From a virus, in IMG/VR virus record IMGVR_UViG_3300042453_005404, positions 1 to 64,000 of that record: a stretch of 64,000 nt of DNA; one strand, given 5' to 3'. Shown here piece by piece: positions 1,810 to 55,587 of this stretch. The notes beneath the pieces were generated by a model that was given only the letters and a program-made list of their open reading frames with translations, was not told the origin of the DNA and made no database searches. Positions within the stretch are counted from its first letter, which is position 1. Each line of letters opens with the position of its first letter. The translations under genes were made by a program, and so were the position numbers.

Positions 1810-2196
1810 TCAGTGTTCGTCCAGTGTTCGTCTGCTCCGCAACTGCAACAGCCCTTCGGGGAATGGATCTACAAAGTCGAATCCAGAGTCAGTAACACCC
1901 ATGATGTAAGCAAGACCGGAGTCCAACATGTCAGAGTGGTTAAATACTCTTTCGAGTTCATCGGGCGTGGTTTTTACTTCTTTTTGACGAGCAAAATCCA
2001 TAACTTCATCCCAAGATACTGATCCACCCTCTTCACCAACATTGCCAAACTCACCGTGAATATCTTCAATAAATCTTGCGATTTTTTCTTCTTTTTCTGG
2101 AGGCATGTTGAGTGCTCCTATACGCTCTTGTTTTCGTTTTTCAACAGATACCGCTTCTTTAATGATTCTTTTTAGTTGACGTACTGTTAATCTCAT
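1810..2196 (-). CDS. Tagged small protein of unknown function
   Basis: This 128-residue protein starts with LTVRQLKRIIKEAV (residues 3-16), a basic amphipathic tag ending in I-K-E before Ala. It is the second form of the putative head-targeting tag in this phage (compare the gene at 21534). The remainder is acidic and helical with a GEEGG turn. No enzyme motif is visible. AGGAG lies about nine bases before the ATG at 2196. Its C-terminal two thirds are duplicated downstream as a fragment. Confidence 0.65.
   Translation of the reverse strand: MRLTVRQLKRIIKEAVSVEKRKQERIGALNMPPEKEEKIARFIEDIHGEFGNVGEEGGSVSWDEVMDFARQKEVKTTPDELERVFNHSDMLDSGLAYIMGVTDSGFDFVDPFPEGLLQLRSRRTLDEH
1811..1832. repeat. Perfect 11-bp tandem repeat at duplication junction
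   Basis: CAGTGTTCGTC occurs twice in direct succession, at 1811-1821 and 1822-1832. It spans the stop codon of the intact gene and the junction with its partial duplicate. Eleven bases is not a multiple of three, so the repeat also sets the frame offset between the two copies. Confidence 0.8.
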
Positions 2197-2327: not shown

Positions 2328-3158
2328 TTATGCTTTCAATTCTCTAATAAAGGACTCGTAAAGTTTTTTGAGTTGTTTTGTTGTATTTTGAAGATAGTTT
2401 TCATTAACTGCATTAACAAAAAGATTTGCTTGTTTTAATTCATCTAGTGTTTTGATTCCATTGTCAAAGTAAGCAAAAGTCATTGCTTTTTGCATTTTTC
2501 CGTATTTTTCTTTTCTTTTTTCAAATTCTTCTGGTGATTCTTCTTTTTGTTTTCTTGGCTCTCTCACCCAAGCGTTCCACTTTGTATCGTTTTTATGGTG
2601 TGCAAAGCAATCATCACTTTTATCTGGTGTTTGAAATGGTTCAAAATCTAAAGCTTTAGATGTTACATCCGGTCTAGACTCCAAATACTCTGCCCAAATC
2701 CTTGCGGCTGCTGGGCTAACCATACTACGATCTCCAATCAAACTATTTCCAGACTGACCAAGAATTACCAACAAACAATCATATAGCATTGGTCCATAAC
2801 CTTTTGCTACTTCTGACATGCTAACAAACCAAGCATTATGACAATTATAATTGGCTTTGTCATCGTTCTCTTTGCATGATACATAACCCCAAGGCATTAA
2901 TGGTTTATGACTCGGCTCTTCATATCGAGATATTGGTCCGCCTTTTTCAAATTTAGAAAATTTAAAATCTCCGTAATATTTTTTTCTTAATTTATCAGTT
3001 TGACTTTCAATTAATCTACCTGTTTTCAAACTGTAAAAACCAACAAGATAAAAATCTGCTCCTCCAAGATCTTGTTTTTCAAATTTTACTCCAACTTTAA
3101 ATTCATCACCAACGCTGTTGTTAAAAGCAATTAGATCTTTAACTGTTTTTGCTGGCAT
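2328..3158 (-). CDS. GNAT-like phage protein
   Basis: This is a 276-residue protein. Residues 120-160 read as a strand (AWFVSMSEV), then AKGYGPMLYDC, which resembles the acetyl-CoA loop and helix of GNAT motif A. SLIGDRSMVSPAAARIWAEYL follows, resembling the second GNAT helix. The same core (GP-(L/M)-x-Y, SDxxL, A-x-x-V/I-W) is found in the six-gene array at 4325-9095, so the families are probably related. It lacks the LNE-type tag, but it follows a small tagged gene by three bases. The C-terminus is charged. Acetyltransferase activity is not shown by the sequence. Confidence 0.5.
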   Translation of the reverse strand: MPAKTVKDLIAFNNSVGDEFKVGVKFEKQDLGGADFYLVGFYSLKTGRLIESQTDKLRKKYYGDFKFSKFEKGGPISRYEEPSHKPLMPWGYVSCKENDDKANYNCHNAWFVSMSEVAKGYGPMLYDCLLVILGQSGNSLIGDRSMVSPAAARIWAEYLESRPDVTSKALDFEPFQTPDKSDDCFAHHKNDTKWNAWVREPRKQKEESPEEFEKRKEKYGKMQKAMTFAYFDNGIKTLDELKQANLFVNAVNENYLQNTTKQLKKLYESFIRELKA

Positions 3159-3962: not shown

Positions 3963-4328
3963 ATGTATTGTATCTCTTCTATTGGTTATGTTCCACATTC
4001 ATTAGCTTTGAAAATATTGAACAGTTCAGAGTTACGTGCAAAAGGCTTCATGGGATGGAGTCAGCCACCCAACGATCATTATGGAATGCTTTTTGTGCAT
4101 GACATAGAACATCCTCAATCTTATTGGATGCATACCGTTCCTTTTGATTTAGATTGTCTTGGATTCGATAAGCATAACAGATTGGTTGAGGTACTGCCTT
4201 TGGAAGCATTTTCTACGGCCTCTAGAAGATTTTCTGTGCCTGTTCGTTATGTTGTTGAAGTAAGAGGAGGTTGGTGTAAAGACCACGGCATAAAAGGCGG
4301 AGAAAAGCTAGTTATAAGGAAACTATGA
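3963..4328 (+). CDS. DUF192-family protein
   Basis: This 121-residue protein has the DUF192 signature: a G-(L/F)-M-x-W-type start (GFMGWSQ), GMLFVHD, the hydrophobic YWMHTVPFDLDCLGFD segment, and a terminal YVVEVRGGWCKDHGIKGGE. Bacterial members are usually exported and of unknown function; this one has no signal peptide. It overlaps the first gene of the six-gene array by four bases (ATGA), so it is probably translated together with the array. Confidence 0.75.
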   Translation: MYCISSIGYVPHSLALKILNSSELRAKGFMGWSQPPNDHYGMLFVHDIEHPQSYWMHTVPFDLDCLGFDKHNRLVEVLPLEAFSTASRRFSVPVRYVVEVRGGWCKDHGIKGGEKLVIRKL

Positions 4329-5113
4329 AACTATATCAAATCATATACACAAACGAAGCAGCAAGATCGGCAGAAGAGTCTTTGGAAAAAGGAGTTTTTG
4401 CTTATCTTAAACCGGGAACGTATCCAAAAGTTATTCTAATATCTAGAGACAGGCTTTTGCAAGCCATTGATTCCGAGGTGCTGCTGGGGCCGTTGGTACG
4501 GAAAATTGCTGGTCGTGCTGTTGTTGGAGCTGTAGGTTATAACAAAGACTCTTCTGGTGAAGATTTATACAAGGTGGATACAAGTGCTGGAGTTGCTAGT
4601 TTTGGTCCATTGGCTTATCAGCTAGCAATGTACACAATACAACCATCTTGGCTAATGAGCGATAGTTCTCTTAAACCAGCAAGTCATCGTGTTTGGAAAA
4701 ACATGTACAAGCTTTCTGAGCAAGGAGTTTATGAGCGTAAATGGCTTGGAGATTATAACATTGACTTGGTTTCTGAACGGTATATTGGTATCGAAAGTGG
4801 CAAGTTTGCGAGATTCCTCTCCTCCTTACGGTGGATTCGCCTCTCCTCCTTACCTCCTCCAGCCGAAGATTTATTCATAAAATGGGTAAAAGAAAACCAC
4901 CCAGAAGAACCGATAGAAAACTTTGGTCAATTTTGGGCATATCGTAAAACAAGTCATGACCCTAAGATAAAAAACTTATTTGATCAAAGCGAAAAGTTTA
5001 TCGAACAAATGCAAACCGAGCGAAAGATACCAGAAGTTACAACAAGAGAAATAATAGAACGTTCAGCAGCTTTGTTTTTTGGTCGTCTTTATGGTTCTGC
5101 TGCAAGTTATTGA
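4325..5113 (+). CDS. Tandem family protein 1 (tagged, GNAT-like core)
   Basis: First of six paralogs, 262 residues. The N-terminal tag MKLYQIIYTNEAARSAEESL is followed by a short variable domain. The conserved core has RAVVGAVGY, a Lys-Val-Asp-Thr strand, GVASFGPLAYQLAM, LMSDSSLKPASHRVW and KMYKL-type segments. The C-terminal helical part ends LYGSAASY. GPLAYQ sits where GNAT enzymes bind acetyl-CoA, but the RxxGxG/A loop is not intact. Residues about 165-180 carry an extra FLSSL/RLSSLPPP stretch made by a 24-bp DNA repeat, absent in the paralogs. I infer a head-packaged protein. Confidence 0.7.
   Translation: MKLYQIIYTNEAARSAEESLEKGVFAYLKPGTYPKVILISRDRLLQAIDSEVLLGPLVRKIAGRAVVGAVGYNKDSSGEDLYKVDTSAGVASFGPLAYQLAMYTIQPSWLMSDSSLKPASHRVWKNMYKLSEQGVYERKWLGDYNIDLVSERYIGIESGKFARFLSSLRWIRLSSLPPPAEDLFIKWVKENHPEEPIENFGQFWAYRKTSHDPKIKNLFDQSEKFIEQMQTERKIPEVTTREIIERSAALFFGRLYGSAASY
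4816..4853 (+). repeat. 24-bp-period direct repeat within tandem family protein 1
   Basis: CCTCTCCTCCTTAC occurs at 4816-4829 and 4840-4853, each preceded by GATTC. The 24-base period keeps the frame and adds about eight residues (Leu-Ser-Ser-Leu blocks) not seen in the paralogs. Confidence 0.75.
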
Positions 5114-5125
5114 AAAGATGAACAC

Positions 5126-5914
5126 ATGAAACTTTATCCACTCATATATACCAACGAAGCAGCAAGAACAGCTAGCGAAGCTATAGAAGCTGAACTAGGA
5201 CTTTTCATTTATCCTACCGATGATTCGATAGCTGTTATATTGATTGATTCAGAACGATGTGAAAATATCTTAGCGTCGTATCTTGAAAAAAAAGAAGCTT
5301 ACAAACCTAAAAAAGAATGGTTAACAACAGCCATTGGAAATCGTGCTGTTGTTGGAGGTGTTGGTATAAGACATCCAGATGCTTGGAGAGTTAGTTTTTC
5401 TGTGGCTGTCAGCAAATATGGTCCATTACTTTATGATGCGGCAATGGCAGCGATATACCCAGATTATCTTTGTTCTGATACAGACATTACAGAAGCCGCT
5501 CAAAAAGTTTGGAACAAAATGCTTGAACGTAATGATGTTGAAAAAATACCTGTTACAGAACTTGGTGATGACGTATACATGATGATAAGCACAAGTTTTA
5601 GCGTTGCAGGCTTGACAAGTAAACAAGCAGAAGAAGCAAGAAATTCTATAGGAGATGCAAATTTGGATTTAGAGTGGTTCGAAAACTTTGTCAGCAGCCT
5701 TCCTCCAGAAGATAAAGCCAAGCTTGGCCCGTTTTATGGTTTTCGTAGAAAGGCTGGCAAAGATCTTTCAAAGTATAATACTCTAATTAAAACCAGTGAT
5801 GACATCATTGATATCTTTGCTGGTTCTATGAAGCTTAAACGATTCGATGTTGAAGAAGCAATAGAACAAGCTGCGATACAAATGTTTAAACGCTTTTATT
5901 TCAGGAGAAAATGA
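5126..5914 (+). CDS. Tandem family protein 2 (most divergent)
   Basis: Paralog of 262 residues with tag MKLYPLIYTNEAARTASEAI, the core RAVVGGVGI, KYGPLLYDAAMAAI, LCSDTDITEAAQKVW and NKML, and a C-terminal helix ending FKRFYFRRK. It is the most divergent copy: it lacks the GVYKRKWLGD block and the LWAYQL block is reduced to FYGFRRK. Its GPLLYDAAM helix is the closest in the array to the GNAT-like gene at 2328. It lies 12 bases after copy 1 and five bases before copy 3. Confidence 0.7.
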   Translation: MKLYPLIYTNEAARTASEAIEAELGLFIYPTDDSIAVILIDSERCENILASYLEKKEAYKPKKEWLTTAIGNRAVVGGVGIRHPDAWRVSFSVAVSKYGPLLYDAAMAAIYPDYLCSDTDITEAAQKVWNKMLERNDVEKIPVTELGDDVYMMISTSFSVAGLTSKQAEEARNSIGDANLDLEWFENFVSSLPPEDKAKLGPFYGFRRKAGKDLSKYNTLIKTSDDIIDIFAGSMKLKRFDVEEAIEQAAIQMFKRFYFRRK

Positions 5915-5918
5915 ACAC

Positions 5919-6746
5919 ATGAAACTATATCCAATCATATACCTTAACGAAGCAGCTCCAACAGCAACCGAAGCTATTGGCAAAAACGTTGCAGCTATCA
6001 CTAGTGACGACTATGCAGATTGGGAATCACCAACCGATCATAGTATCGTTTTGATATCCACAAATAGAGCAATGAGCATAATGCAATCGTTGCCGAAAAA
6101 AGGTTGGGCACCAGAGGAGATAAGCGCCGCAGAAGCTCGTACTATCGGTAAACTCATTGCAAATCGAGCAGTTGTTGGATATGTTGCATACTCTGATAGC
6201 GATGAAAATCTGTGGAAAATCGACTCTAGTGCCGGTGTGGCGAGTTTCGGACCATTGGCATATCAACTAGCGATGTGGTCAACTGGTGGTTGGCTTGAAA
6301 GCGATATTTCTCTCAAACCAGCAAGTCAAAGAGTTTGGCAAAAAATGTATGAACTATCCAATCAAGGTGTATACAAGCGTAAATGGCTTGGTGAATGGAA
6401 CGAAGATCATCCCGCCGAACGTATGCATATTGGTCCTGCTCCCCGAGATTTAGGAGAGTATATAACCAAAGTCGAAAACGGAGAAATAGATTACGAAGAC
6501 GAACAAGCTTTTCTAAGTTGGTTACAAGAAAACAACCTAAAGCCAGAAACTTATGGTTGGCTTTGGGCTTATCAACTAGTCTCTCACGATTCAAACACTC
6601 GCAGTTTGTTTGACAAAGGCAAGCAACTAATCCAAGATTTAAGAGAAATATATCCTCAGTTCACCGAAAAAGATCTTGGTGAGTTGTTTGAAACTGCGGG
6701 CAGAAAGTTTTTTCGTAGACTCTACGGTGGAAAAGCTAGTTATTGA
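5919..6746 (+). CDS. Tandem family protein 3
   Basis: Paralog of 275 residues, the longest copy. The tag MKLYPIIYLNEAAPTATEAI contains L-N-E before Ala, matching the T4 prohead site rule exactly. The core has NRAVVGYVAY, KIDSSAGVASFGPLAYQLAM, WLESDISLKPASQRVWQKMY, GVYKRKWLGEW and YGWLWAYQL, and it ends RRLYGGKASY. It has a Trp-rich acidic insert after residue 35. It lies five bases after copy 2. Confidence 0.7.
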   Translation: MKLYPIIYLNEAAPTATEAIGKNVAAITSDDYADWESPTDHSIVLISTNRAMSIMQSLPKKGWAPEEISAAEARTIGKLIANRAVVGYVAYSDSDENLWKIDSSAGVASFGPLAYQLAMWSTGGWLESDISLKPASQRVWQKMYELSNQGVYKRKWLGEWNEDHPAERMHIGPAPRDLGEYITKVENGEIDYEDEQAFLSWLQENNLKPETYGWLWAYQLVSHDSNTRSLFDKGKQLIQDLREIYPQFTEKDLGELFETAGRKFFRRLYGGKASY

Positions 6747-6759
6747 TAACAGAAATAAC

Positions 6760-7515
6760 ATGAAACTTTATCCAATCATATACCTTAACGAAGGTATGCG
6801 TACACCAGAAGAAGCGTTGGAAAAAGGTATTGCTGCGATACAAACACCAACCGGTGTCGCCGGAGGTCAGTTTGTAAATCTTGTTTCAAAAAAACGTATG
6901 CTAAATTTGCTAGAAAAAAACAAAACCTTGTTAAACAATCCAACAGAACGCTTAAAGTTGGTGTTTAAAGCTGCCAACCGTGCTGTTGTTGGTAGCGTTA
7001 GTTTTCGATCTACACACGTTCAAGGTGTAACCAAAATCAACACAAGTGCTGCGGTTAATAAATTTGGACCTCTTGCTTATCAGTTAGCAATGCATTATAT
7101 AAAGCCAAGATGGCTTTGTAGCGATACAAGCCTAACAGCTGAATCAGCAAAAGTGTGGTACGAAATGTACGCACGTCCAGAACTCTATGAAAAAAAATGG
7201 ATGGGTGATCTATCAGGAGATTCTACCAAACTCATTAATGATCGATTGAACGCTGATGAAAACAAAGACTATATCGATTTACCCGACGACATGGTAACCG
7301 ACGAAGCGTATATGACACAAGAACTTGGTGACATGTCCAAATATGGATATCTTTATGTTTATCGTTTAGCTAAACCTATTCCTGCATTGCAGGCTGTTTT
7401 CGATCAAGGGGAAGCGTTTCTTGACGAACTCGTTGACAGAGGATTCGACGCTGCTTTAATCAAACAAATCATTAGTGACAGCGGCGATGCATTTTTTGAA
7501 AGGAGATACGATTGA
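6760..7515 (+). CDS. Tandem family protein 4
   Basis: The start is taken at the ATG at 6760, where the family tag begins (MKLYPIIYLNEGMRTPEEAL); an upstream extension would only overlap copy 3. 251 residues. The core has NRAVVGSVSFR, AAVNKFGPLAYQLAMHYI, WLCSDTSLTAESAKVW and KKWMGDL, with YGYLYVYRL in place of the Trp-rich segment. It ends FFERRYD, without the ASY/ASD tail. The stop overlaps the start of copy 5. Confidence 0.7.
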   Translation: MKLYPIIYLNEGMRTPEEALEKGIAAIQTPTGVAGGQFVNLVSKKRMLNLLEKNKTLLNNPTERLKLVFKAANRAVVGSVSFRSTHVQGVTKINTSAAVNKFGPLAYQLAMHYIKPRWLCSDTSLTAESAKVWYEMYARPELYEKKWMGDLSGDSTKLINDRLNADENKDYIDLPDDMVTDEAYMTQELGDMSKYGYLYVYRLAKPIPALQAVFDQGEAFLDELVDRGFDAALIKQIISDSGDAFFERRYD

Positions 7516-8309
7516 AACTATATCCAATCATATATCTCAACGAAGGTATGCGTACACCAGAAGAAGCGTTGTCGAAAGGTGTGGCTGCAATCAAAAAATC
7601 AGCTGGTAGCGATAAAGTTGCAGCAATCGATTTGCTTTCTATTGAGAGAACTTTAAATATCGCAAAAAAACACAAGCCATGGCAGATCGTTGACGGCGAG
7701 CATTTAGCTAAACGTGCATTTGTTGCTTCGATTGTATATGAGTTTGTTAGTGAAGATATCTACAAAATCATTGGCAGCGCAGGAGTTTCAGACTTTGGTC
7801 CATTAGCTTACCAAATGGTAATGCAAGAAATCATGAAGGATGGTGGATGGCTTGCGTCTGATTCAATGCTTAAACCTGCAAGTCAAAGAGTTTGGCAAAA
7901 GATGTATGAGCTTTCCGAACAAGGTGTATACAAACGTAAGTTTTTGGGAGAGGTAAACAAAAAGCATATCAGTATGCGTCAATTGATTATACCATCTGAA
8001 CTTAAATCCATTGTAGGCATTAAAGACGCTATAAGCGACTATTACAAAACAAGCTACAAAATGACAAATGACGGTTTTATAGCTTATTTGGATGCACTAT
8101 CCCTAAAACCACAAACTTATGGTTGGATGTGGGCATACCAACTTGAATCTCCTAACCCAAACATTGACGAGCTTTATAGAAAAGGTGAAGAGTTAGTTGC
8201 GCAAATAAAAAATATAACGGGATTTGACGATAAAGTTACACATGACATGATCGAGGATGCTGGTGAAAAGTTTTTTGATCGTTTATACGGCAGCAAAGCC
8301 AGCGATTGA
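7512..8309 (+). CDS. Tandem family protein 5 (TTG start)
   Basis: 265 residues. The family tag LYPIIYLNEGMRTPEEAL begins at a TTG (7512-7514) that overlaps the stop of copy 4 (TTGA). A strong AGGAG lies six bases upstream, so TTG is the likely start; the other five copies use ATG. The core has KRAFVASIVY, AGVSDFGPLAYQMVMQEIM, WLASDSMLKPASQRVWQKMY, GVYKRKFLGE and YGWMWAYQL, ending DRLYGSKASD. The rarer start and overlap suggest output coupled to copy 4. Confidence 0.7.
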   Translation: MKLYPIIYLNEGMRTPEEALSKGVAAIKKSAGSDKVAAIDLLSIERTLNIAKKHKPWQIVDGEHLAKRAFVASIVYEFVSEDIYKIIGSAGVSDFGPLAYQMVMQEIMKDGGWLASDSMLKPASQRVWQKMYELSEQGVYKRKFLGEVNKKHISMRQLIIPSELKSIVGIKDAISDYYKTSYKMTNDGFIAYLDALSLKPQTYGWMWAYQLESPNPNIDELYRKGEELVAQIKNITGFDDKVTHDMIEDAGEKFFDRLYGSKASD

Positions 8310-8324
8310 CACAAGGAAATCTAA

Positions 8325-9095
8325 ATGAAGCTGTACCCCATTATGTATCTTCATGAAGGTATGCGGACACCAGAAGAAGCGTTGGAAAAAGGTATTGCTG
8401 CTATAGCACACAAGTATGCAACCAGCGTTGGGGGTATAGTGTTGCTTTCTACCAAAAGAACGTTAAAGTACGTACAAAAAAATAAAGCATTAGATGGTTT
8501 AGAACAACGAGCAGTAGTTGCATCGATCAACTATAGGCTGATTCAAGGAGATCTATACAAAATCAATTACAGCGCAGGAGTTTCAGACTTTGGTCCATTG
8601 GCATATCAAATGGTAATGCAAGAAATAATGAAAACTAACAATGGATGGTTGGCTTCTGATGAAAATCTTAAGAAAGCCAGCAAAAGAGTTTGGCAAAAGA
8701 TGTATGAGCTTTCTGAACAAGGTGTATACAAGCGCAAATGGTTAGGTGATTGGGATATCGGCGGGGGAGATCGGACACGGCATCCATTCAGCAGACGAAC
8801 ACATTTAGGTCAAGATTCATCGTTGTATTACGAAGGTATGAAAGATAAGAAGTACGATGGTTCTGAAGCTGATTTTTTAAAATACTTAAGCGAACATAAT
8901 GTAGCACCATATGAGTATGGATGGCTTTGGGCTTACCAACTTCAATCATTTAATCCAAAGTTTGAAGAGCTTTATGAAAAAGGTGAAGAGTTACTTTTGC
9001 AAATCGAACAAATCATCAAAGGTGTAAGAATCAATAACGTTCGTAATGTTTTGCTTTCTGGAGAAAACTTCTTTGGTCGTATGTATCACTCATAA
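8325..9095 (+). CDS. Tandem family protein 6
   Basis: Last copy, 256 residues. The tag is MKLYPIMYLHEGMRTPEEAL. The core has QRAVVASINYR, YSAGVSDFGPLAYQMVMQ, WLASDENLKKASKRVWQKMY, GVYKRKWLGDW and YGWLWAYQL. It is closest to copy 5. The linker after KWLGDW is different in every copy (here GGGDRTRHPFSRRTH), so the array has a fixed core and a variable middle. AAGGA precedes the start. A convergent minus-strand gene begins 14 bases downstream. Confidence 0.7.
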   Translation: MKLYPIMYLHEGMRTPEEALEKGIAAIAHKYATSVGGIVLLSTKRTLKYVQKNKALDGLEQRAVVASINYRLIQGDLYKINYSAGVSDFGPLAYQMVMQEIMKTNNGWLASDENLKKASKRVWQKMYELSEQGVYKRKWLGDWDIGGGDRTRHPFSRRTHLGQDSSLYYEGMKDKKYDGSEADFLKYLSEHNVAPYEYGWLWAYQLQSFNPKFEELYEKGEELLLQIEQIIKGVRINNVRNVLLSGENFFGRMYHS

Positions 9096-9109: not shown

Positions 9110-9685
9110 CTATGGTGAATCTGTTTTAACAGGCTCATTTGGATCTTCTAAACCCTGCCACAATCCCGGCATAGCCGGACCCTCAAAGTCTGGTTTGTGC
9201 ATCGCTCCAAAGCTTTCTTGAATATCATGTTCATATTCCAGAGTCACTTTTAGTCTTGGAATAGAATCATTAGCTATTTCATCTTTGGTAGCTGGACGTA
9301 CAACATCTAGAGTACATACCATCCATTGTTCGTCTGGTCCATGACACAATACCCCAGTATCACGAAATGCACGAAGTATTCTACGTTTCTCTTCTGGAGA
9401 GATATCAAGCTTTTCTACTTCGAAGTCTTTTGGTTCGTAGCCAGTATATTCAACGTGTGGCATTTCTTGAAGAGCTAAAGCATTTGGATCATGCACGGCT
9501 GGAGAAGCTGAAATAACTTTTCCTTTTTTGCGACGTTTTACTTTTTGTCCCGGCTTCATTCCAATCGGAAGCATAGGTCCACCTCCGATTTGCCCAGAAG
9601 TATCTAAACCACCGCCGCCAGCACTGATAGCCATTGCTTCTTCTATTGCTGCGTCTTCGTATATAATGCTTTTTAGTTTGCTCAT
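9110..9685 (-). CDS. Tagged protein with Gly-rich linker
   Basis: 191 residues. It begins MSKLKSIIYEDAAIEEAM, with I-Y-E before Asp as a possible prohead protease site. A Gly-rich linker (SAGGGGLDTSGQIGGG) and a basic patch (VKRRKKGK) follow. The C-terminal domain includes ISPEEKRRILRAF and GPDEQWMVCTLDVVRP and ends in an acidic tail. The domain is not recognised. There is no Shine-Dalgarno before the ATG, but AGTTATATC ends two bases before it. Likely a virion or head-associated protein. Confidence 0.6.
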   Translation of the reverse strand: MSKLKSIIYEDAAIEEAMAISAGGGGLDTSGQIGGGPMLPIGMKPGQKVKRRKKGKVISASPAVHDPNALALQEMPHVEYTGYEPKDFEVEKLDISPEEKRRILRAFRDTGVLCHGPDEQWMVCTLDVVRPATKDEIANDSIPRLKVTLEYEHDIQESFGAMHKPDFEGPAMPGLWQGLEDPNEPVKTDSP

Positions 9686-10359: not shown

Positions 10360-12081
10360 TCAACCTTCACAGGCTTTACATTCGGTGCTTTCACGCTTGT
10401 ATTCTCTGCTGCCGCTATCTCCTCTGATAACAGAGCTAGTGCGTAGATAATACAAGCTATTCAATCCTTCAGCGTGAGCCATCAAATGTACTTCATGGAT
10501 ATATTTTGGATCAGCATTTTCTGGAAAGAACAAGTTCAATGATTGACCTTGATCGATCCAGCGTTGACGCTGACCAGCAAGCTTAACCAAAGTAAACTGA
10601 TTAAGTTCTCTTGCCGTTAGAAAAACTTCCTTCTCTTCTGCTGATAGGAAGTCTAGATGTTGCACTGAACCATTCTCACGTTCAATGCTTTTCCAAACTT
10701 CATCTGTGTTCTTATCCTTCTTCTCAAGAAGGGCAACAAGAGTTCTGTTTTGTTGGATAATAGTTCCTTTGGCACTTTTTTGAACGAATACATTAGCCGC
10801 CCAAGGTTCAATGCTGGGAGAAACGTTTCCAGAGATAAGCGAGTTAGAAACGGTTGGAGCAAGCGCAATAAGGTGGGTATTACGTCGTCCAGAGCCAACA
10901 CACCACTCTGGTTCACCATATTCTTTTGCGAGCTCTGTAGAGGCTTCTAGAGCCTTTCGTTGAAGTCCAGAAAACATTGCTGCATTAATACGAAACGCAT
11001 CAAATGAATCTAGAGGAATCATGTGCTCTTGAAGATATGTGTGAAAGCCCATAGCTCCAAGACCAATAGCTCTGCCTTTTTCTGCTGAACGAACAGCACG
11101 TTCGAATCCATTAATCTTGGAAGCCTTTGCAATAAACTCTGTAAGAATGCCATCAAGAAACCATGTGGCAAGTTTTACTGCATCGGTATTCTTCCATTCA
11201 TCCCAACGAGCAAGGTTCATGGACGAAAGACAACACACGAACGAATGATCATCGTCTGTATGAAGAAAGATCTCGGTACAGATGTTCGAACCCTTTACAT
11301 CAAGGCTTCTTTCTTTATAGCAATCTGGACGATTGCGTGACACGTTATCTGTGAAGAAAAGATAAGGTTCACCTGTTTCCATACGAGCCTTTAGAATCTC
11401 GCTCCACTTTTCTCTTGCTTCTTTATCTCCAGCTTTTGCCCGTGCAATAAAATCATCGGTAATACAAATACCATGATGTGTGTTTAGGCACTGACGGTTT
11501 TGATCACCTTCTGGTCTACGCATACGTAGAAATTGCCAGAAATCACCATGATCTACTGGAAGATAAGCAGCAGAAGCTCCTCTGCGTACACCACCTTGAG
11601 AAACACCAATAGTAGTAGAGTCTTGAATCTTGATGAATGGAACAACCCCTTCCGACTTACCGTTGCCACGAATGGTTGCTCCTTGTGGACGTACACCATT
11701 CCAGTGAACGCCAACACCACCACCATTCTTTGTCATGGCAGCAAGCTCATGCATAGAACTCATAATACCGTCTATAGAGTCTGGAACGGCAAGAGAAAAG
11801 CATGAGATAGGAAGACCTCTTGTTGTACCGGTATTGGCAGCTACAGGTGACGCAAGACCTAACCAGTTATTCCACATAAGCTCAAAAAACTTTGGAGCAA
11901 GTTCCATTTTACCAAGGTGTCTAGCAGAAGAGTTAGAAACACGTTGCCACATTTGACGAGGTGTTTCTCCTGCAAGAAGATATGTTCCACGAAGCATTCG
12001 ATAGCTTTCTTCTGTAAGCCATTCTGGCGCATCGTTTTCTGTTTTTAGTTTTTGTAGTTCTTCTGCTGTAGACATACTCAT
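10360..12081 (-). CDS. nrdA: Ribonucleoside-diphosphate reductase alpha subunit
   Basis: It reduces ribonucleotides to deoxyribonucleotides with NrdB. 573 residues, short against about 760 for E. coli NrdA because the N-terminal ATP-cone is absent; allosteric shut-off by dATP is probably lost. Active-site features are present: SCFSLAVPDS (Cys94), SNICTEI (thiyl-radical Cys268 with Asn266 and Glu270), CCLSSMN (Cys283/284) and a C-terminal Cys pair (ECKACEG) for reduction by thioredoxin or glutaredoxin. The start overlaps the nrdB stop by four bases. Confidence 0.96.
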   Translation of the reverse strand: MSMSTAEELQKLKTENDAPEWLTEESYRMLRGTYLLAGETPRQMWQRVSNSSARHLGKMELAPKFFELMWNNWLGLASPVAANTGTTRGLPISCFSLAVPDSIDGIMSSMHELAAMTKNGGGVGVHWNGVRPQGATIRGNGKSEGVVPFIKIQDSTTIGVSQGGVRRGASAAYLPVDHGDFWQFLRMRRPEGDQNRQCLNTHHGICITDDFIARAKAGDKEAREKWSEILKARMETGEPYLFFTDNVSRNRPDCYKERSLDVKGSNICTEIFLHTDDDHSFVCCLSSMNLARWDEWKNTDAVKLATWFLDGILTEFIAKASKINGFERAVRSAEKGRAIGLGAMGFHTYLQEHMIPLDSFDAFRINAAMFSGLQRKALEASTELAKEYGEPEWCVGSGRRNTHLIALAPTVSNSLISGNVSPSIEPWAANVFVQKSAKGTIIQQNRTLVALLEKKDKNTDEVWKSIERENGSVQHLDFLSAEEKEVFLTARELNQFTLVKLAGQRQRWIDQGQSLNLFFPENADPKYIHEVHLMAHAEGLNSLYYLRTSSVIRGDSGSREYKRESTECKACEG

Positions 12082-20943: not shown

Positions 20944-21537
20944 GTGAAATACCAACGATTATTGTTACAGATTATCGAAGAAGAAATCGACAAATATTTT
21001 CTGGAACAAGTTGCACCACCAGCGGCACCAGCTGCTCCAACGCCACCTACCGCATCAACAGATGCGGGTTTAGAGCCTGATGTTTCCGGTGGGGGCGAAG
21101 GTGATGATGAAGGCAATGTAGACAAAGCCATAAAGATACTTGCTGCTAAAACTCCTATCGAGGTCAAAAAAACGATTTTGTCTTCTTTACAAAATGGCGC
21201 AGAAAGACCTGATGCTGAAACTTTGATTGCTTATGTACAAAACAAGAAAGAAAAAGAGTCAACAAACAATTCTACTATTGAAGATACAGACAAAGAAATA
21301 CCAATTAACGTCGATAAAGCTGTTACCCACATTGTACAAACTTTCAAGTTCAAGGTACCAGAAAAAGCAGAAAAAGAAGCAGAAAAAGAAGATAAAGCAT
21401 CGATAGAAGAAAAGCCTGCGGAAACACCAGCAGCTCCCGCCGCACCAACTTCTGCACCTGTGCAAGAATCTAAATTGCAAACCAGTTTGCGAGAATATTT
21501 AAGGTACAAGCAATTAAGTCAAAAGGTGAAAAGATGA
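20944..21537 (+). CDS. Tagged Ala/Pro/Glu-rich protein
   Basis: I prefer the GTG at 20944 (MKYQRLLLQIIEEE), since the earlier ATG at 20878 lies inside the previous gene. 197 residues. It has a hydrophobic N-terminal tag (LLLQIIEEEI), a Pro/Ala linker (PPAAPAAPTPP), an acidic middle and a Lys/Glu repeat (EKAEKEAEKEDKA). Its C-terminal amphipathic stretch is LREYLRYKQLSQKVKR. It is largely disordered or coiled, and looks like a scaffold, core or internal head protein. The stop overlaps the next start by four bases. Confidence 0.55.
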   Translation: MKYQRLLLQIIEEEIDKYFLEQVAPPAAPAAPTPPTASTDAGLEPDVSGGGEGDDEGNVDKAIKILAAKTPIEVKKTILSSLQNGAERPDAETLIAYVQNKKEKESTNNSTIEDTDKEIPINVDKAVTHIVQTFKFKVPEKAEKEAEKEDKASIEEKPAETPAAPAAPTSAPVQESKLQTSLREYLRYKQLSQKVKR

Positions 21538-21911
21538 AAAAGGAACTTACATACAAACAACTTAAAACAATCATTAAGGAATGTGCTTGTGAAGCAATGA
21601 AAGACTCACATATGGGTGGAATGCCCAGCATTAAAATGATTAAGCTTGGAAAACCTGATACGCAAGCTGGATTGTTTCCCGGTATGGGTTTAGATCATAT
21701 GGATCATGATGATTCACACTGGGATGATCACGACCAAGGTGAAAAAAGCATGATTCTTGCTAATCTTGCAAGAATGTCAGACAAGGCTTTAGAGCTTCGT
21801 GATTTGGCTGCTGGCGTACCCGACAACGAAGAATGGGTTCAAGAAAAGATTGCTGTTGCTTCTGCGATGATAGATTCGATTTACAACTATTTAAAATACA
21901 AGCAAGACTGA
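21534..21911 (+). CDS. Tagged small protein with His/Asp-rich centre
   Basis: 125 residues. The tag ELTYKQLKTIIKECACEAM (4-22) is the same type as in the gene at 1810-2196 (QLKRIIKEA). Then follow a Met/Gly-rich loop and a His/Asp cluster (DHMDHDDSHWDDHDQ) that could bind metal. Two helices at the end finish in YLKYKQD, similar to the YLRYKQ end of the preceding protein. It overlaps that gene by ATGA. Function unknown; probably packaged or head-associated. Confidence 0.6.
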   Translation: MKKELTYKQLKTIIKECACEAMKDSHMGGMPSIKMIKLGKPDTQAGLFPGMGLDHMDHDDSHWDDHDQGEKSMILANLARMSDKALELRDLAAGVPDNEEWVQEKIAVASAMIDSIYNYLKYKQD

Positions 21912-25134: not shown

Positions 25135-25638
25135 TTATTCCCAAGCCCTACACGACCAGTACCGGGCCTTGGTTCTTGGGCCGGGATTTTTGCAATTATG
25201 ACGAGCTCTAAAGCTCTTACGACGCTTTGGATTGCTCTTCTTGATGCGCATGTTTCTATCACCAAAGGTTACTCTTTTTACGTTTCCTGTTTTGGGATCA
25301 CGAACAAAAACATAAAACTTTTTCTTTCCCTTTGATGTTGGATTTCTTTTTGGTTTGCCGAGCTCAACTTTTTTTCCTTGATATTCTGCTTCGGTTAATA
25401 AATTATGTTGTTCGTTCATATAAGCAACAAGACAACCTTCGCAAACTGGTGTTCCGTCTTCTAGCTCTGCATTAAGCTCTAGAATGTTAACATTTTCTTC
25501 TGGTAGTTCTTCGTCAAACAAAAGATATAAGTCTTTTTCTGGGACATAAACAGGTTCTTGATTAAGAACACGTTTGTATTTGCTCTTGAGCTCTTGTAAT
25601 GATTCTAGAATAAGACGCTTTAAATACAGTTTGTTCAT
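25135..25638 (-). CDS. Tagged protein with conserved Arg/Lys-rich C-terminal domain
   Basis: 167 residues. It has the N-terminal tag NKLYLKRLILESLQEL with I-L-E before Ser. The acidic middle holds a CEGC pair. The C-terminal domain reads KKKFYVFVRDPKTGNVKRV, FGDRNMRIKK, KRRKSFRARHNC and KARYWSCRAWE, with a pair of cysteines. I recognise this C-terminal pattern as recurrent in T4-like marine phages, where it occurs near head or core genes, but cannot name it firmly. The basic domain could bind DNA in the head. Confidence 0.65.
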   Translation of the reverse strand: MNKLYLKRLILESLQELKSKYKRVLNQEPVYVPEKDLYLLFDEELPEENVNILELNAELEDGTPVCEGCLVAYMNEQHNLLTEAEYQGKKVELGKPKRNPTSKGKKKFYVFVRDPKTGNVKRVTFGDRNMRIKKSNPKRRKSFRARHNCKNPGPRTKARYWSCRAWE

Positions 25639-48524: not shown

Positions 48525-49559
48525 ATGGCAAAGATTCTCGTTGGGCTTTCTGGTGGTGTAGATTCTGCCGTTGTTGCTGCTTTGTTGAAGCGACAAGGGC
48601 ATGAAGTCTATGGTTATACCCTTAAGCTTCTAGAAACACTTGACAGTGATGAAGGTGAGGGTTGCTGCACCTTCAAGGATATTCGTGATGCTCGTATGAT
48701 TTGTGATCAGATGGGTATTGAATACCTTGTCACAAACTGGAAGCAACAGTTCAAGGAAAAGGTTATTGATCGTTACCTTGATGGAGCCAAACAAGGTATT
48801 GCTTACAATCCGTGTGTAACGTGTAATAGCACCATCAAACTTCCAGTGCTTGCTGCGGTTGCCAATCATTTTGGCTGCGAGTATATTGCTACTGGACACT
48901 ATGCAAGAGTAAACAATGGACGAATCAGCAGGGCAAAAAATCTCAAAAAAGATCAAAGCTATTTTCTCTGGGAAACTCCATCAGATGTTGTTTCTCGACT
49001 TATCTTTCCCCTTGGAGATTTTGATAGCAAGGAAGATACTAGAGCTCTTGCCCGTGAGTTTGGTCTTCACGTCGCTGACAAGAAGGATTCAACCGACTTG
49101 TGCTTTCTTGCTGGAGGTACCAAGGAAGAGTTTTTGGAGCGAAACAACGTTGTTTCCTTTGGTGGTAACTTTGTTGATGTTGATGGAAAGGTAGTAGGAA
49201 AGCATGAAGGATACACAAAATACGTCGCAGGACAGCGTGCCAACATTGCTGGCAGTAATAATGCTCGTTACGTTCTCAATGTTGTACGTTCTACTGGGAA
49301 CGTCGTGGTTGGTTCAAGGGAGCAGGCCAGTTCTCGATCTTTCTTTCTCACCAACGCTAGGATCGATTTTAAGGTAGGTGTAGATACGGTTACAGCAGTT
49401 ACCCGCTATCATTCATCTCCTGTCGCTGTAGAGGCTATTACGAGCTCTGACAGTGGTGTAAATGTTTCTTTGCGGGAATCTGTGTTTGGTGTTGCAAAGG
49501 GACAGAGCTGTGTGTTTTATTGCGGTGATGAAGTTGTTGGTGGAGGGGTGATTTCATGA
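48525..49559 (+). CDS. mnmA: tRNA-specific 2-thiouridylase
   Basis: 344 residues, against about 365 in bacteria. The PP-loop is LSGGVDSAVV (8-17), the first catalytic Cys region NPCVTCN (95-101), a GHYAR motif (124-128) and KDQSYFLW (142-149) follow, and the second Cys is in STDLCFL (Cys193). The C-terminal tRNA-binding beta domain is present. The enzyme thiolates U34 of Lys, Glu and Gln tRNAs using sulfur relayed by host proteins. A phage copy is rare and may restore or protect tRNA wobble modification during infection. The stop overlaps the first gene of the small-protein array. Confidence 0.93.
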   Translation: MAKILVGLSGGVDSAVVAALLKRQGHEVYGYTLKLLETLDSDEGEGCCTFKDIRDARMICDQMGIEYLVTNWKQQFKEKVIDRYLDGAKQGIAYNPCVTCNSTIKLPVLAAVANHFGCEYIATGHYARVNNGRISRAKNLKKDQSYFLWETPSDVVSRLIFPLGDFDSKEDTRALAREFGLHVADKKDSTDLCFLAGGTKEEFLERNNVVSFGGNFVDVDGKVVGKHEGYTKYVAGQRANIAGSNNARYVLNVVRSTGNVVVGSREQASSRSFFLTNARIDFKVGVDTVTAVTRYHSSPVAVEAITSSDSGVNVSLRESVFGVAKGQSCVFYCGDEVVGGGVIS

Positions 49560-49849
49560 TTATCGGTGAGTTGTACTTTGTGAAAGAGCTTTTCTGGCTT
49601 CTCTTTCCAACGAAAGAACTGGCGTCGAAGCGATGGTGCTTTGCGGCGACCGGCGGTCGAGCGAAGCAGGTGAAGGGGGCAGTTTCTTTTGTTGAACCAA
49701 AGACTTATGTTGTTTTTCTTGAAGAAGATGAAAATGTAAATGAATGTTGCTATAAACTGCTTGATTCAAATGGTAACATTGGTTGGATTGGTTGGAATAG
49801 CTGTTCTGATTTCTCTAGCTATTTCGAGCTTGTAAAGGCAAATCAATGA
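49556..49849 (+). CDS. Variable-insert array protein 1
   Basis: 97 residues. Conserved front IIGELYFVKELFWLLFPTKE, GC-rich variable centre (SKRWCFAATGGRAKQVKGA), conserved back FVEPKTYVVFLEEDENV ... LLDSNGNIGWIG and a final FELVKANQ. The back half looks like a small SH3-like barrel. It overlaps mnmA by four bases and the next copy by four bases, so the set is translationally coupled. Function unknown. Confidence 0.6.
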   Translation: MIIGELYFVKELFWLLFPTKELASKRWCFAATGGRAKQVKGAVSFVEPKTYVVFLEEDENVNECCYKLLDSNGNIGWIGWNSCSDFSSYFELVKANQ

Positions 49850-50148
49850 GTGATATTCAAATCGGTGAGCTTTATTTGGTTAAAGGTTTCTGTCTTCTCA
49901 TTCCAACAAAAGAACGGGCGTCGAGGCGGTTGTCGGGGGGGTGCGGGCGACCGGCGGCGTATCGACATGCAAAAGAGTTAAGCCAAATTTTTAAATGCAA
50001 CGTTTCTGTTGTTGAACCAAACACTTACGTTGTTTTGCTTGAAATGGATGAAGTATATTTCAAGGTTCTTGACTCAAACGGTAACATTGGTTGGATTTAT
50101 TGCTCTGATTTCTCTGGTTATTTCAAGCTTGTAAAGGCAAATCAATGA
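49846..50148 (+). CDS. Variable-insert array protein 2
   Basis: 100 residues. IQIGELYLVKGF, then LLIPTKERAS; variable centre SRRLSGGCGRPAAYRHAK encoded by a run of G/C-rich codons including GGGGGGG. Conserved back VVEPNTYVVLLEMDE ... VLDSNGNIGWIYCSDFSGYF and KLVKANQ. The start and stop overlap the neighbouring copies (ATGA). Confidence 0.6.
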   Translation: MSDIQIGELYLVKGFCLLIPTKERASRRLSGGCGRPAAYRHAKELSQIFKCNVSVVEPNTYVVLLEMDEVYFKVLDSNGNIGWIYCSDFSGYFKLVKANQ

Positions 50149-50459
50149 GTGATTTCATGATTATCGGTGAGTTGTATTTGGTTAAAAGTTACCACTGGTT
50201 TCTCTTTCCAGCAAAAGAGCAGGCGACGGGGGTCGATGCGGCGAGGGTGGCGGTGAGGGTGTCGCAGAGTTATGCAAAATGGTTCAGCCAAGAATTTAAA
50301 TGCAAAGTTTTTGTTGTTGAACCAAACACTTATGTTGTTTTGCTTGAAGTAAATGAAAATGAATGTTGCTATAAACTGCTTGATTGTAATGGAAACGTTG
50401 GTTGGATTTATTGTTCTGATTTTTCCGACTATTTCGAGCTTGTAAAGGCAAATCAATGA
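50145..50459 (+). CDS. Variable-insert array protein 3
   Basis: 104 residues. The N-terminus MSDFMIIGELYLVK looks like a fusion of the start of copy 2 (MSD) and copy 1 (MIIGELY). The variable centre is TGVDAARVAVRVSQSY, again GC-rich. The back half is FVVEPNTYVVLLEVNENEC, LLDCNGNVGWIYCSDF and FELVKANQ. A Cys replaces Ser in LLDCNG. Confidence 0.6.
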   Translation: MSDFMIIGELYLVKSYHWFLFPAKEQATGVDAARVAVRVSQSYAKWFSQEFKCKVFVVEPNTYVVLLEVNENECCYKLLDCNGNVGWIYCSDFSDYFELVKANQ

Positions 50460-50770
50460 GTGATATTCAAATCGGTGAGTTGTATTTGGTAAAAGAGTTT
50501 TTCTGGTTTCTCTTTCCAACAAAAGAACTGGCGAGGCGGGTGCAGACCGCCGTGGTGGCGGCGGCGAGGTACAGGGCGAAGGCGGCGTGGCGTAATGCAA
50601 AAATGTTAAGCAAAGATTATAACTGCAACGTTTTTGTTGTTGAACCAAACACTTGCTTTGTTTTGCTTGAAGAAGATGAAAATTTTTTCAAGGTTCTTGA
50701 CTCAAACGGTACCGTTGGTTGGATTCGTTGTAGGGATTTTTCCGACTTTTTCGAACTTGTAAAGGAATAA
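50456..50770 (+). CDS. Variable-insert array protein 4
   Basis: 104 residues. IQIGELYLVKEFFWFLFPTKE as in copy 1. The centre ARRVQTAVVAAARYRAKAAW is the most GC-rich and basic of the four. The back half is FVVEPNTCFVLLEEDENFF, VLDSNGTVGWIRCRDF and FELVKE, lacking the ANQ tail. It is the last of the four closely related copies; more distant relatives follow. Confidence 0.6.
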   Translation: MSDIQIGELYLVKEFFWFLFPTKELARRVQTAVVAAARYRAKAAWRNAKMLSKDYNCNVFVVEPNTCFVLLEEDENFFKVLDSNGTVGWIRCRDFSDFFELVKE

Positions 50771-54148: not shown

Positions 54149-54827
54149 CTACTTCCTTCTAAAAAAGTCTGTCACTCTCTGGAGCATACCTTGGTTTTGT
54201 GATGGTGCTGGTGGGGTTGTTGCAGCAACATTTCCCGCTGCTGGTCGTGCTGGAATTGTTGTCGCCGCAGTTGGCGCAGAGCTTGTTTGGGGTGAAGAAG
54301 CTGGAGGCCGTGCGGATCGTTGAGGTTGAGATGGAGGAGTAAAAATACGTGTTATATCTTCGTCAGAAAGTCCTCTGCCCTTCAGAAATTTGATATAATC
54401 TTCTCGATCTTTTTCCTGATAATATTTTTTCTTTTCTTCTGGAGACATATCAGGAGCAGATGGAGTTGTTGAATCCAATGGAGGGCGACGACGTAGGGGA
54501 GATGGTGGCCGAGGTGTTTCCATTTTTCCAAAATCCCCTTGTCTTTCTGGAATTTTACCACCAATAAAATTGGCAAGAGTTTTGATATTGCTAGCTGCGT
54601 TACTTGCGTCTTCTGCATCTTGTTTTGTTGGAGCAGCTTGTTTAACCAAATGCTCGATATTATTGATAAGTTCTTTAATTTCTTTTTGTGAGCTGTTTAT
54701 AACCTCTGGAGAAGATCGACTAATTTTGTTGGAGGGCGAAGGCGCTAAATTGGGTTTGTTGGTTGCCAACCGAGCTTTTAAGTCTGGTGGTTTTGGGCCT
54801 TCAAAAAGTATGTCATATAACTTCATA
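54149..54827 (-). CDS. Tagged Pro-rich protein A
   Basis: Start taken at the ATG at 54827, where the tag MKLYDILFEGPKPPD begins (L-F-E before Gly). 225 residues. A helical segment (KEIKELINNIEHLVKQAA), a KKKYYQEKDREDYIKFLKG helix and a long Pro/Ala/Ser/Thr chain follow, ending GMLQRVTDFFRRK. The end is similar in kind to that of the neighbouring 54862 gene. Mostly disordered; it looks like an internal head protein. The start lacks a Shine-Dalgarno. Confidence 0.6.
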
Positions 54828-54861: not shown

Positions 54862-55587
54862 TTAACGATTGTTAATTGCATCTTTAAATGCTTGCTTTAT
54901 CGCTTCTTCAAGACCAATACGGTTTCTGAACCTTTGAAAAAGGCTTTGCTTTGTTGGTGTTGCTTGTGGCAATGGAGTTGTTGGAGCATTTCGCATTGTT
55001 CTTTCAATGTCAACTTGTGGAACAGGTTGTGTTTGATTAGGTCTATATTGAGGTTGTGTTTTAGCGAATGCTAAAGCAGCTTGTGTTGCTTGCTGTGGTG
55101 ATGGTGACTTTGTAGGCTTCTGTTCCTGTGGTGTTGTAATTGATCTTGCGCTAGGTTGGGGCAAAGCAGTAGAACTAGCAGCAGAACTTACAACGGGTTG
55201 TTGTGGTTCTGGTTTAGTTTTATAACCTTTCATGTCGGCAATTGCACTAATGATTGGGTCTACATCTTCAATTGCTTTTTTAGCTGCAACAACTTCTTCT
55301 TTTGATGGATCTTTCTTATTGGCAAGGTTTGAAATAGCTGGCAATTCATTTTTGATTTTTTCTCGCATTTTGGTTATTAATTGACTTGGTTCAAATTCCA
55401 TCCTGCCAGACTTTGAAGGCTTATCATAAGGACTCGGTTTTATTTTAGCTCTTGGTGCTCTTATTTTGGTTGGTGGGTTGGTTGGTGGGTTATTGGTTGT
55501 CGGCACTGTGGAGTCTCCGTGCCGTCCAACTCGTTGCGGTGGAGGTGCATCTTCATACAAAAATTCGTACAAACTATACTTTGTCAT
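54862..55587 (-). CDS. Tagged Pro-rich protein B
   Basis: 241 residues. Tag TKYSLYEFLYEDAPPPQ with L-Y-E before Asp. It has a long Pro/Thr/Lys-rich chain with one helical region (LITKMREKIKNELPAI, EVVAAKKAIEDVDPII). The C-terminus SLFQRFRNRIGLEEAIKQAF is an amphipathic basic helix, like LQRVTDFFRRK in the neighbour. The two are likely diverged paralogs with tag, disordered middle and basic end. Confidence 0.6.
   Translation of the reverse strand: MTKYSLYEFLYEDAPPPQRVGRHGDSTVPTTNNPPTNPPTKIRAPRAKIKPSPYDKPSKSGRMEFEPSQLITKMREKIKNELPAISNLANKKDPSKEEVVAAKKAIEDVDPIISAIADMKGYKTKPEPQQPVVSSAASSTALPQPSARSITTPQEQKPTKSPSPQQATQAALAFAKTQPQYRPNQTQPVPQVDIERTMRNAPTTPLPQATPTKQSLFQRFRNRIGLEEAIKQAFKDAINNR

Follow-up and report, generated by a model that had tools for sequence, protein, structure and literature searches.

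The Alt protein of phage T4 is a packaged and injected ADP-ribosyltransferase with a cleaved N-terminal propeptide, and the Rac protein of the phiKMV-type phages is a GNAT that modifies RNA polymerase. In T4, internal-protein propeptides of 10-19 residues direct cargo into the prohead, and the protease gp21 cleaves after L/I-X-E (PMC9026906). Cleavage of these propeptides depends on residues 8 and 10, and their targeting on residues 4 and 7 (PMC9026906). Each of the internal proteins Ip1, Ip2 and Ip3 blocks a GmrSD nuclease of its own, without cross-protection (PMC12373910), and the deletion of ipIII costs T4 a host (PMC9391042), so that these proteins provide a precedent for proteins that enter together with the DNA and individually counter distinct restriction systems. 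GNAT and ADP-ribosyltransferase (ART) domains have also been proposed in injected phage proteins (PMC5512222, PMC7824862), and GNATs are listed in jumbo phages (PMC7824862). In the present work, we have analysed a tandem array of six paralogous genes at positions 4325-9095 (+) of the virus record IMGVR_UViG_3300042453_005404, of whose 260,466 bases the first 64,000 (bases 1-64000) constitute the window referred to below. We consider it fairly probable that this locus works like a T-even ip locus with GNAT-derived cargo, the proteins being packaged, trimmed and injected with one target per copy. The array thus probably gives the phage a reloadable stock of proteins that enter the bacterium alongside the DNA and disarm or redirect it. 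The principle of delivery is itself known from the capsid-targeting sequence (CTS) of T4; a tandem, recombining array of individually tagged GNAT-like cargo, and the breadth of the tag, were not found described in the literature, in which our search recovered no paper describing the array family or the tag. In a 2026 review of jumbo phages, Tad1 is the only anti-defence protein that is named for such phages (PMC13282480).

The array resembles the T-even ip loci (PMC12373910, PMC9026906) in that several paralogous or analogous copies occupy a variable accessory locus, that the proteins open with a brief N-terminal propeptide, mostly conforming to MK.Y....(I/L)xE|A (where | denotes the putative cleavage site), and that a gp21-type protease and a gp23-type head are encoded in the same genome. 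Unlike Ip1-3, the array proteins have larger, predicted GNAT-like bodies and occur in a tandem run of up to six genes, and their tag also heads about 20 proteins of different kinds elsewhere in the genome. A likeness to T4 Alt is provided by ART-like proteins under the same tag (an R...SWS...SExE motif read by eye and unconfirmed by profile), whereas the array proteins are GNAT-like and not ART-like. The array shares with phage GNATs (viz. phiKMV Rac and those of jumbo phages) a predicted beta4-loop-alpha3-beta5-alpha4 core with a GP-x-x-Y helix at the acetyl-CoA site, but its loop is degenerate, it carries long N- and C-terminal additions and it gives no profile match. The same classes of enzyme occur in the polyvalent proteins (PMC5512222), which are presumed to enter the host with phage DNA; unlike these, each activity here is a separate small tagged protein, the sole fusion being that to DUF192 in the relative L020, and the array proteins, of about 250 amino acids (aa), have one recognisable core and not several catalytic domains per polypeptide. 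Among the inner-body and ejection proteins of phiKZ and SPN3US (PMC5694885) there are likewise paralogous head proteins whose N-terminal propeptides are almost identical and are removed by a cut after x-x-E, but several of their propeptides exceed 100 residues and have A-x-E or S-x-E sites, whereas those found here are of 9-12 residues, in the style of T4.

The six genes of the array are consecutive open reading frames (ORFs) encoding proteins of 251-275 aa with pairwise identities of 27-51%, viz. copy 1 (4325-5113, +; 262 aa; tag MKLYQIIYTNE|A; family hidden Markov model (HMM) E = 3.6e-88), copy 2 (5126-5914, +; 262 aa; the most divergent of the six), copy 3 (5919-6746, +; 275 aa; 88% aa identity to its ortholog L012_350), copy 4 (6760-7515, +; 251 aa; 93% aa identity to its ortholog in the relative L012), copy 5 (7512-8309, +; 265 aa; with a TTG start that overlaps the stop of copy 4) and copy 6 (8325-9095, +; 256 aa; tag MKLYPIMYLHE|G). 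The true start of copy 4 is the ATG at 6760, not 6676. All-against-all BLASTP comparisons of the copies gave E values of 2e-15 to 4e-79, hence their kinship is far above chance, and the six consecutive paralogues reported in an earlier note, made from the sequence alone, are confirmed. Thirty columns are invariant over the six copies, including M1, K2, L3, Y4, Y8 and E11 and, in the numbering of copy 3, G111, P112, L113, Y115, S128, D129, W140 and G213. The shared motifs listed in that note hold for most of the copies, the exceptions being copy 2, which has PVTELGD and LGPFYGFRR in place of KRKWLGD and YGWLWAYQL, and copy 4, in which both are present in softened forms. The near-identical start of copies 3 and 4, also described there, was recovered as 97% DNA identity over the first 34 bases, and copies 4, 5 and 6 share 84-86% identity over stretches of 81-95 bases. 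The variable middle lies in copy 3 between KWLGE and YGW (6396-6539, +). Within the variable middle of copy 1, CTCTCCTCCTTAC occurs twice at 4800-4860 as a short imperfect duplication, and this repetition suggests that the middle of this copy grew via small duplications.

The tag of the array proteins has the consensus MKLY(P/Q)(I/L)(I/L)(Y/F)(xN)E, with A or G as the next residue. The putative capsid-targeting propeptides (all +) correspond to positions 4325-4357 in copy 1 and 5126-5158 in copy 2 (both T-N-E, with an atypical P3 residue), 5919-5951 in copy 3, 6760-6792 in copy 4 and 7512-7544 in copy 5 (all L-N-E), and 8325-8357 in copy 6 (L-H-E). Among 29 family members the P3 residue is L or I in 20, V in three and T in six, and the six T-N-E tags imply either that the protease tolerates threonine at P3 or that some copies are uncut. 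The array termini MKLYQIIYTNE|AA and MKLYPIIYLNE|AA resemble the N-terminus of T4 ipII/ipIII (MKTYQEFIAE|A, from NC_000866), and the tag is of similar length (9-12 residues) on the array proteins and on unrelated bodies. A strict form of the tag pattern is present in 18 of the 130 ORFs in the sampled regions, where about 0.5 would be expected; genome-wide DNA tag patterns gave 12 + 6 matches versus none in reversed controls, and about 26 tags were read by eye in the ~112 kb of the genome that was examined. The tag also occurs in five of five records of relatives, with 0 control matches. A Peptidase_S77 (gp21-type) prohead protease gene is located at C1:189255-189866 (E = 2.7e-29), its GELDH and GISSR segments being assigned to the catalytic His and Ser by visual inspection. 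A protease of this type is found in three of five records of relatives, the two largest included. The same genome has a gp23-type major capsid protein gene at C1:194053-196005; since BLAST gaps the relevant region of this protein, LNE at residue 67, the nearest to the start of the mature-capsid homology, is a candidate cleavage site only, LLE36 and LLE51 also being present. The protease, the capsid protein, the occurrence of the tag on unrelated proteins and the T4 CTS likeness all support the head tag that had been proposed from the sequence.

The body of the array proteins is likely GNAT-like, this being a resemblance at the level of the predicted fold. The AlphaFold2 model of copy 3 (from a 20-sequence alignment) has a pLDDT of 88.9 and a pTM of 0.86, and its sole stretch below a pLDDT of 50 consists of residues 1-11, ending at the tag glutamate. 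The order of elements in this model (strand 98-106, a loop, helix 111-122 containing GPLAYQ, strand 125-128, helix 134-148 and strand 152-156) fits the beta4-alpha3-beta5-alpha4 core of GNATs. In a Foldseek search of PDB with copy 3, nearly all of the top 50 matches were GNATs (best E = 0.06; TM <=0.46 by target), and among the BFVD viral models the best match (E = 1.8e-4) was to an unnamed protein, followed by GNATs. The loop and helix of copy 3 (SFGPLAYQLAMWS, residues 109-121, at 6243-6281, +) occupy the position of the GNAT acetyl-CoA loop. The canonical R/Q-x-x-G-x-G/A loop is lost in the array copies, the first Gly of GxG being replaced in all six (by S, K, S, K, D and D, respectively), while GxG-P is retained at the loop in 9 of the 29 family members.

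Relatives of this locus were obtained from two scans of IMG/VR, and their array copies were counted with the family HMM. The array comprises six copies in L012, four each in L013, L014 and L017, two in L019 and one in L020, compared with six here; L016, in which the contig end cuts the locus, has at least two. Outside the array the gene order is colinear, the flanking DUF192 gene showing 53-99% identity, the gene at 9110 mostly 75-85% and the NrdA-like gene 91-96% in the relatives in which it is present. In a phylogenetic tree, the first two L012 copies are the partners of window copies 3 and 4, window copies 5 and 6 group as mutual closest kin (support 100/98), and the clade of copy 2 includes L012_3390, L013_2263, L014_7519 and L017_10801. 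The third, fourth and sixth copies of L012 have near-identical partners in L013, the third and fourth also in L019. Comparison of the window with L012 shows a patchy synonymous divergence (dS), with values of 0.015 for the DUF192 gene, 0.34 for copy 3 and 0.06 for copy 4 versus 0.58-0.85 for four downstream genes, which indicates a recent exchange of array segments by recombination. The ratio of nonsynonymous to synonymous divergence (dN/dS) is 0.22-0.88 in close array pairs versus 0.01-0.13 in the downstream genes and 0.01-0.06 for the NrdA- and NrdB-like neighbours among them, the array genes having about 4-40 times the ratio of these ribonucleotide-reductase-type genes. The repeated duplication with diversification that had been suspected is consequently borne out by the differences in copy number and the cassette shuffling among the relatives. 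L020 has its single array-type domain joined in frame to DUF192; the tag (SDILFE|G) is here internal, located where the two domains meet, and no start codon is close by. Other accessory genes adjoining the array in the relatives (L014 3798-6092, L016 1938-3347, L017 13100-14503 and L019 12029-13438) also open with tag-like N-termini (viz. NWLFE|Q, RWLFE|Q, RFLFKE|A and MKLYHFLFE|Q). The array proteins gave no family match in Pfam or PHROG; neither the array (by megablast or tblastn) nor the families related to it had a match in INPHARED (50,697 phage records), and no relative was found in bacterial or archaeal genome contigs.

Packaging, cleavage, injection, an anti-host function and the assignment of one target to each copy are what we infer from these results, the individual specificity of the copies being suggested by analogy with T4 Ip1-3 (PMC12373910). 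In the proposed mechanism, the propeptide of 9-12 residues would bind the growing prohead core and carry each protein into it, the gp21-type protease would cleave behind the tag glutamate, and the mature body of 240-265 residues would be kept in the head with the DNA and then ejected into the host. The mature body would there bind and block a host defence or regulatory protein or, less likely, modify it; binding is favoured because the GNAT-derived fold has a decayed acetyl-CoA loop in the array copies. Copies are gained, lost, duplicated and swapped as cassettes, presumably because the sets of targets differ between hosts. A broader proposal, which we regard as possible and somewhat short of an even chance, is that in this phage and its uncultured relatives one gp21-cleaved tag serves as a general loading code for about 25 small effectors, that at least 11 proteins of the genome descend from a single GNAT-like family, and that the array branch of this family, without the canonical acetyl-CoA loop, consists of rapidly reshuffled binding modules, each directed against a different host defence; the whole would represent a capsid-delivered counterpart to the effector repertoires of bacterial secretion systems. 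If the ip-like reading is true, the N-terminal tag would allow capsid-borne effectors to be listed from sequence in uncultured large phages, and the present genome would hold about 25 candidate effectors, including an unannotated, fast-evolving tandem family.

Several results weigh against an injected, GNAT-derived cargo. The bodies of the array proteins show no similarity beyond chance to T4 Ip1-3, hence the array is described as working like an ip locus and not as an Ip homologue. Profile searches (Pfam, PHROG and PDB sequences) recovered no GNAT family, the profile of the array aligns with two intact-loop GNATs of the same genome over the tag alone, and no PDB fold match is significant by itself. 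With PDB matches only at E >=0.06, the fold is graded as likely rather than proven; the GNAT-like core with an altered acetyl-CoA loop that the earlier note had recognised is upheld by the order of elements, the GNATs among the Foldseek matches and the loss of the first Gly. The interpretation given there is, as a whole, partly supported. Moreover, the tags of copies 1 and 2 fall outside strict L/I-X-E, and T4-type late promoters (TATAAATA) are essentially absent near the head and the array genes alike; as regards the timing of expression, promoter- and terminator-like sites are no commoner than in shuffles.

The proteins could also be packaged and injected and yet retain catalysis, as acyltransferases with a separate host substrate for each copy, in the manner of phiKMV-type Rac. 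The predicted fold, the tagged GNATs with an intact RGEGLG loop in the same genome, the nine family members that retain GxG-P and the recurrence of GNATs and ARTs as injected or host-modifying phage enzymes (PMC7824862, PMC5512222) are consistent with such activity, which we nevertheless consider unlikely, since the six window copies all lack the first glycine of the loop and profile searches identify no acetyltransferase. More doubtful still is the explanation that the tag is some other short signal (e.g., a leader for translation, or one that directs the protein to a membrane or compartment) or reflects shared 5' ancestry, the proteins acting as early cytoplasmic anti-defence. The 5' DNA of the copies is unusually alike, as noted for copies 3 and 4, and recombination alone could suffice to account for this; synonymous identity is 0.66 in the tag versus 0.35-0.54 elsewhere, and six family members violate L/I-X-E. 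However, on unrelated bodies the tag differs in its spacing and codon usage but maintains its terminal E and its MKLx...[FY] frame, the fused single copy of L020 retains its internal SDILFE|G, and the T4 CTS likeness together with gp21-type proteases in the two largest relatives would have to be a coincidence. A role of the array proteins as head core or scaffold components, or as nucleoid-like DNA-binding internal proteins, that serve assembly or packaging and do not act in the host appears very unlikely. The prohead-core association implied by the tag and the effect of T4 IPIII on head assembly (PMC9026906) would agree with it, but the drop in copy number from six to one among the relatives, the high dN/dS of the array genes, the shuffling of gene content between conserved flanks and the presence of the same tag on enzymes, e.g., a Nudix protein, argue against it. 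Turnover, diversification behind a constant tag and a mixed enzyme payload fit an injected role better than a structural one.

Diverged members of the array family lie outside the array, at 2328-3158 (-) and at 138-142 kb of the same genome. In profile comparisons the array joins three other groups of GNAT-like proteins, viz. gene 137961 together with L021 and L022 (99.0%, E = 3.5e-18), genes 139231, 140007 and 140858 (96.6% over 237 columns) and the gene at 2328-3158 (hhalign, 84%), a diverged member without the MKLY tag and with a VSMSEVAKGYGPMLYD core (array HMM E = 4.8e-6), and these three links bring the family to at least 11 members in one genome. A link to the pair of intact-loop GNATs was rejected, the alignment being limited to the tag, and the structure model of gene 137961 (pLDDT 62) was too low in confidence for a fold search. 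Tagged genes also form another large cluster, distributed over the two strands, at C1:133905-144282. It contains the two tagged GNATs with an intact RGEGLGKAMY loop, the tagged Nudix protein (E = 1.7e-18), three PGAG-type and one GYGP-type GNAT-like proteins, one ART-like protein and a number of unknowns. A longer N-terminus, also ending LxE, is found on two neighbouring proteins, viz. a Zeta-toxin-type P-loop protein (E = 5.3e-15) and an exonuclease of the RNase_T type (E = 6.8e-9). Two tagged paralogues at C1:103212-104555 carry the R...SWS...SExE motif and are probable mono-ADP-ribosyltransferases at the level of this motif; the assignment found no Pfam, PHROG or PDB support for 103212, 103920 or 136954, and BLAST of the ART-like proteins against T4 Alt was not significant. 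N-termini of another, longer kind (MRLTVRQLKRIIKE|A, MKKHLKAIIRSLVLE|A), likewise ending [LIV]xE, were observed in the window at 1810-2196 (-), 21534-21911 (+) and 25135-25638 (-) and outside it at C1 141673, 142966 and 144338, on kinase-like, exonuclease and unknown proteins and also on the GNAT-like proteins of L021 and L022.

The operon-like run that contains the array is headed by the DUF192 (COG1430) gene at 3963-4328 (+; Pfam PF02643, E = 1.3e-16), which overlaps copy 1 by 4 bp, and the run is ended by convergent genes. A tagged gene at 9110-9685 (-; MSKLKSIIYE|D) closes the variable locus downstream, and the NrdA-like gene (10360-12081) lies beyond it. Tagged genes with bodies unrelated to the array are present at 309-668 (+; matching the tag pattern), 54149-54826 (-; MKLYDILFE|G) and 54862-55587 (-; MTKYSLYEFLYE|D, an N-terminus that was read and falls outside the strict regular expression). 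An adjoining partial duplication is found at 1560-1727 and 1810-2196 (-), with SWKEVMDFARQKGVKTTP... versus SWDEVMDFARQKEVKTTP..., the shorter copy being without the tag. A separate family of small proteins (~75-110 aa, IGKLYxVK...NGxxGW) forms tandem runs at 49556-50770 (+) and also occurs at C1 107.0-107.6 kb and 128.1-131.2 kb, with more than 10 copies in the sampled sequence.

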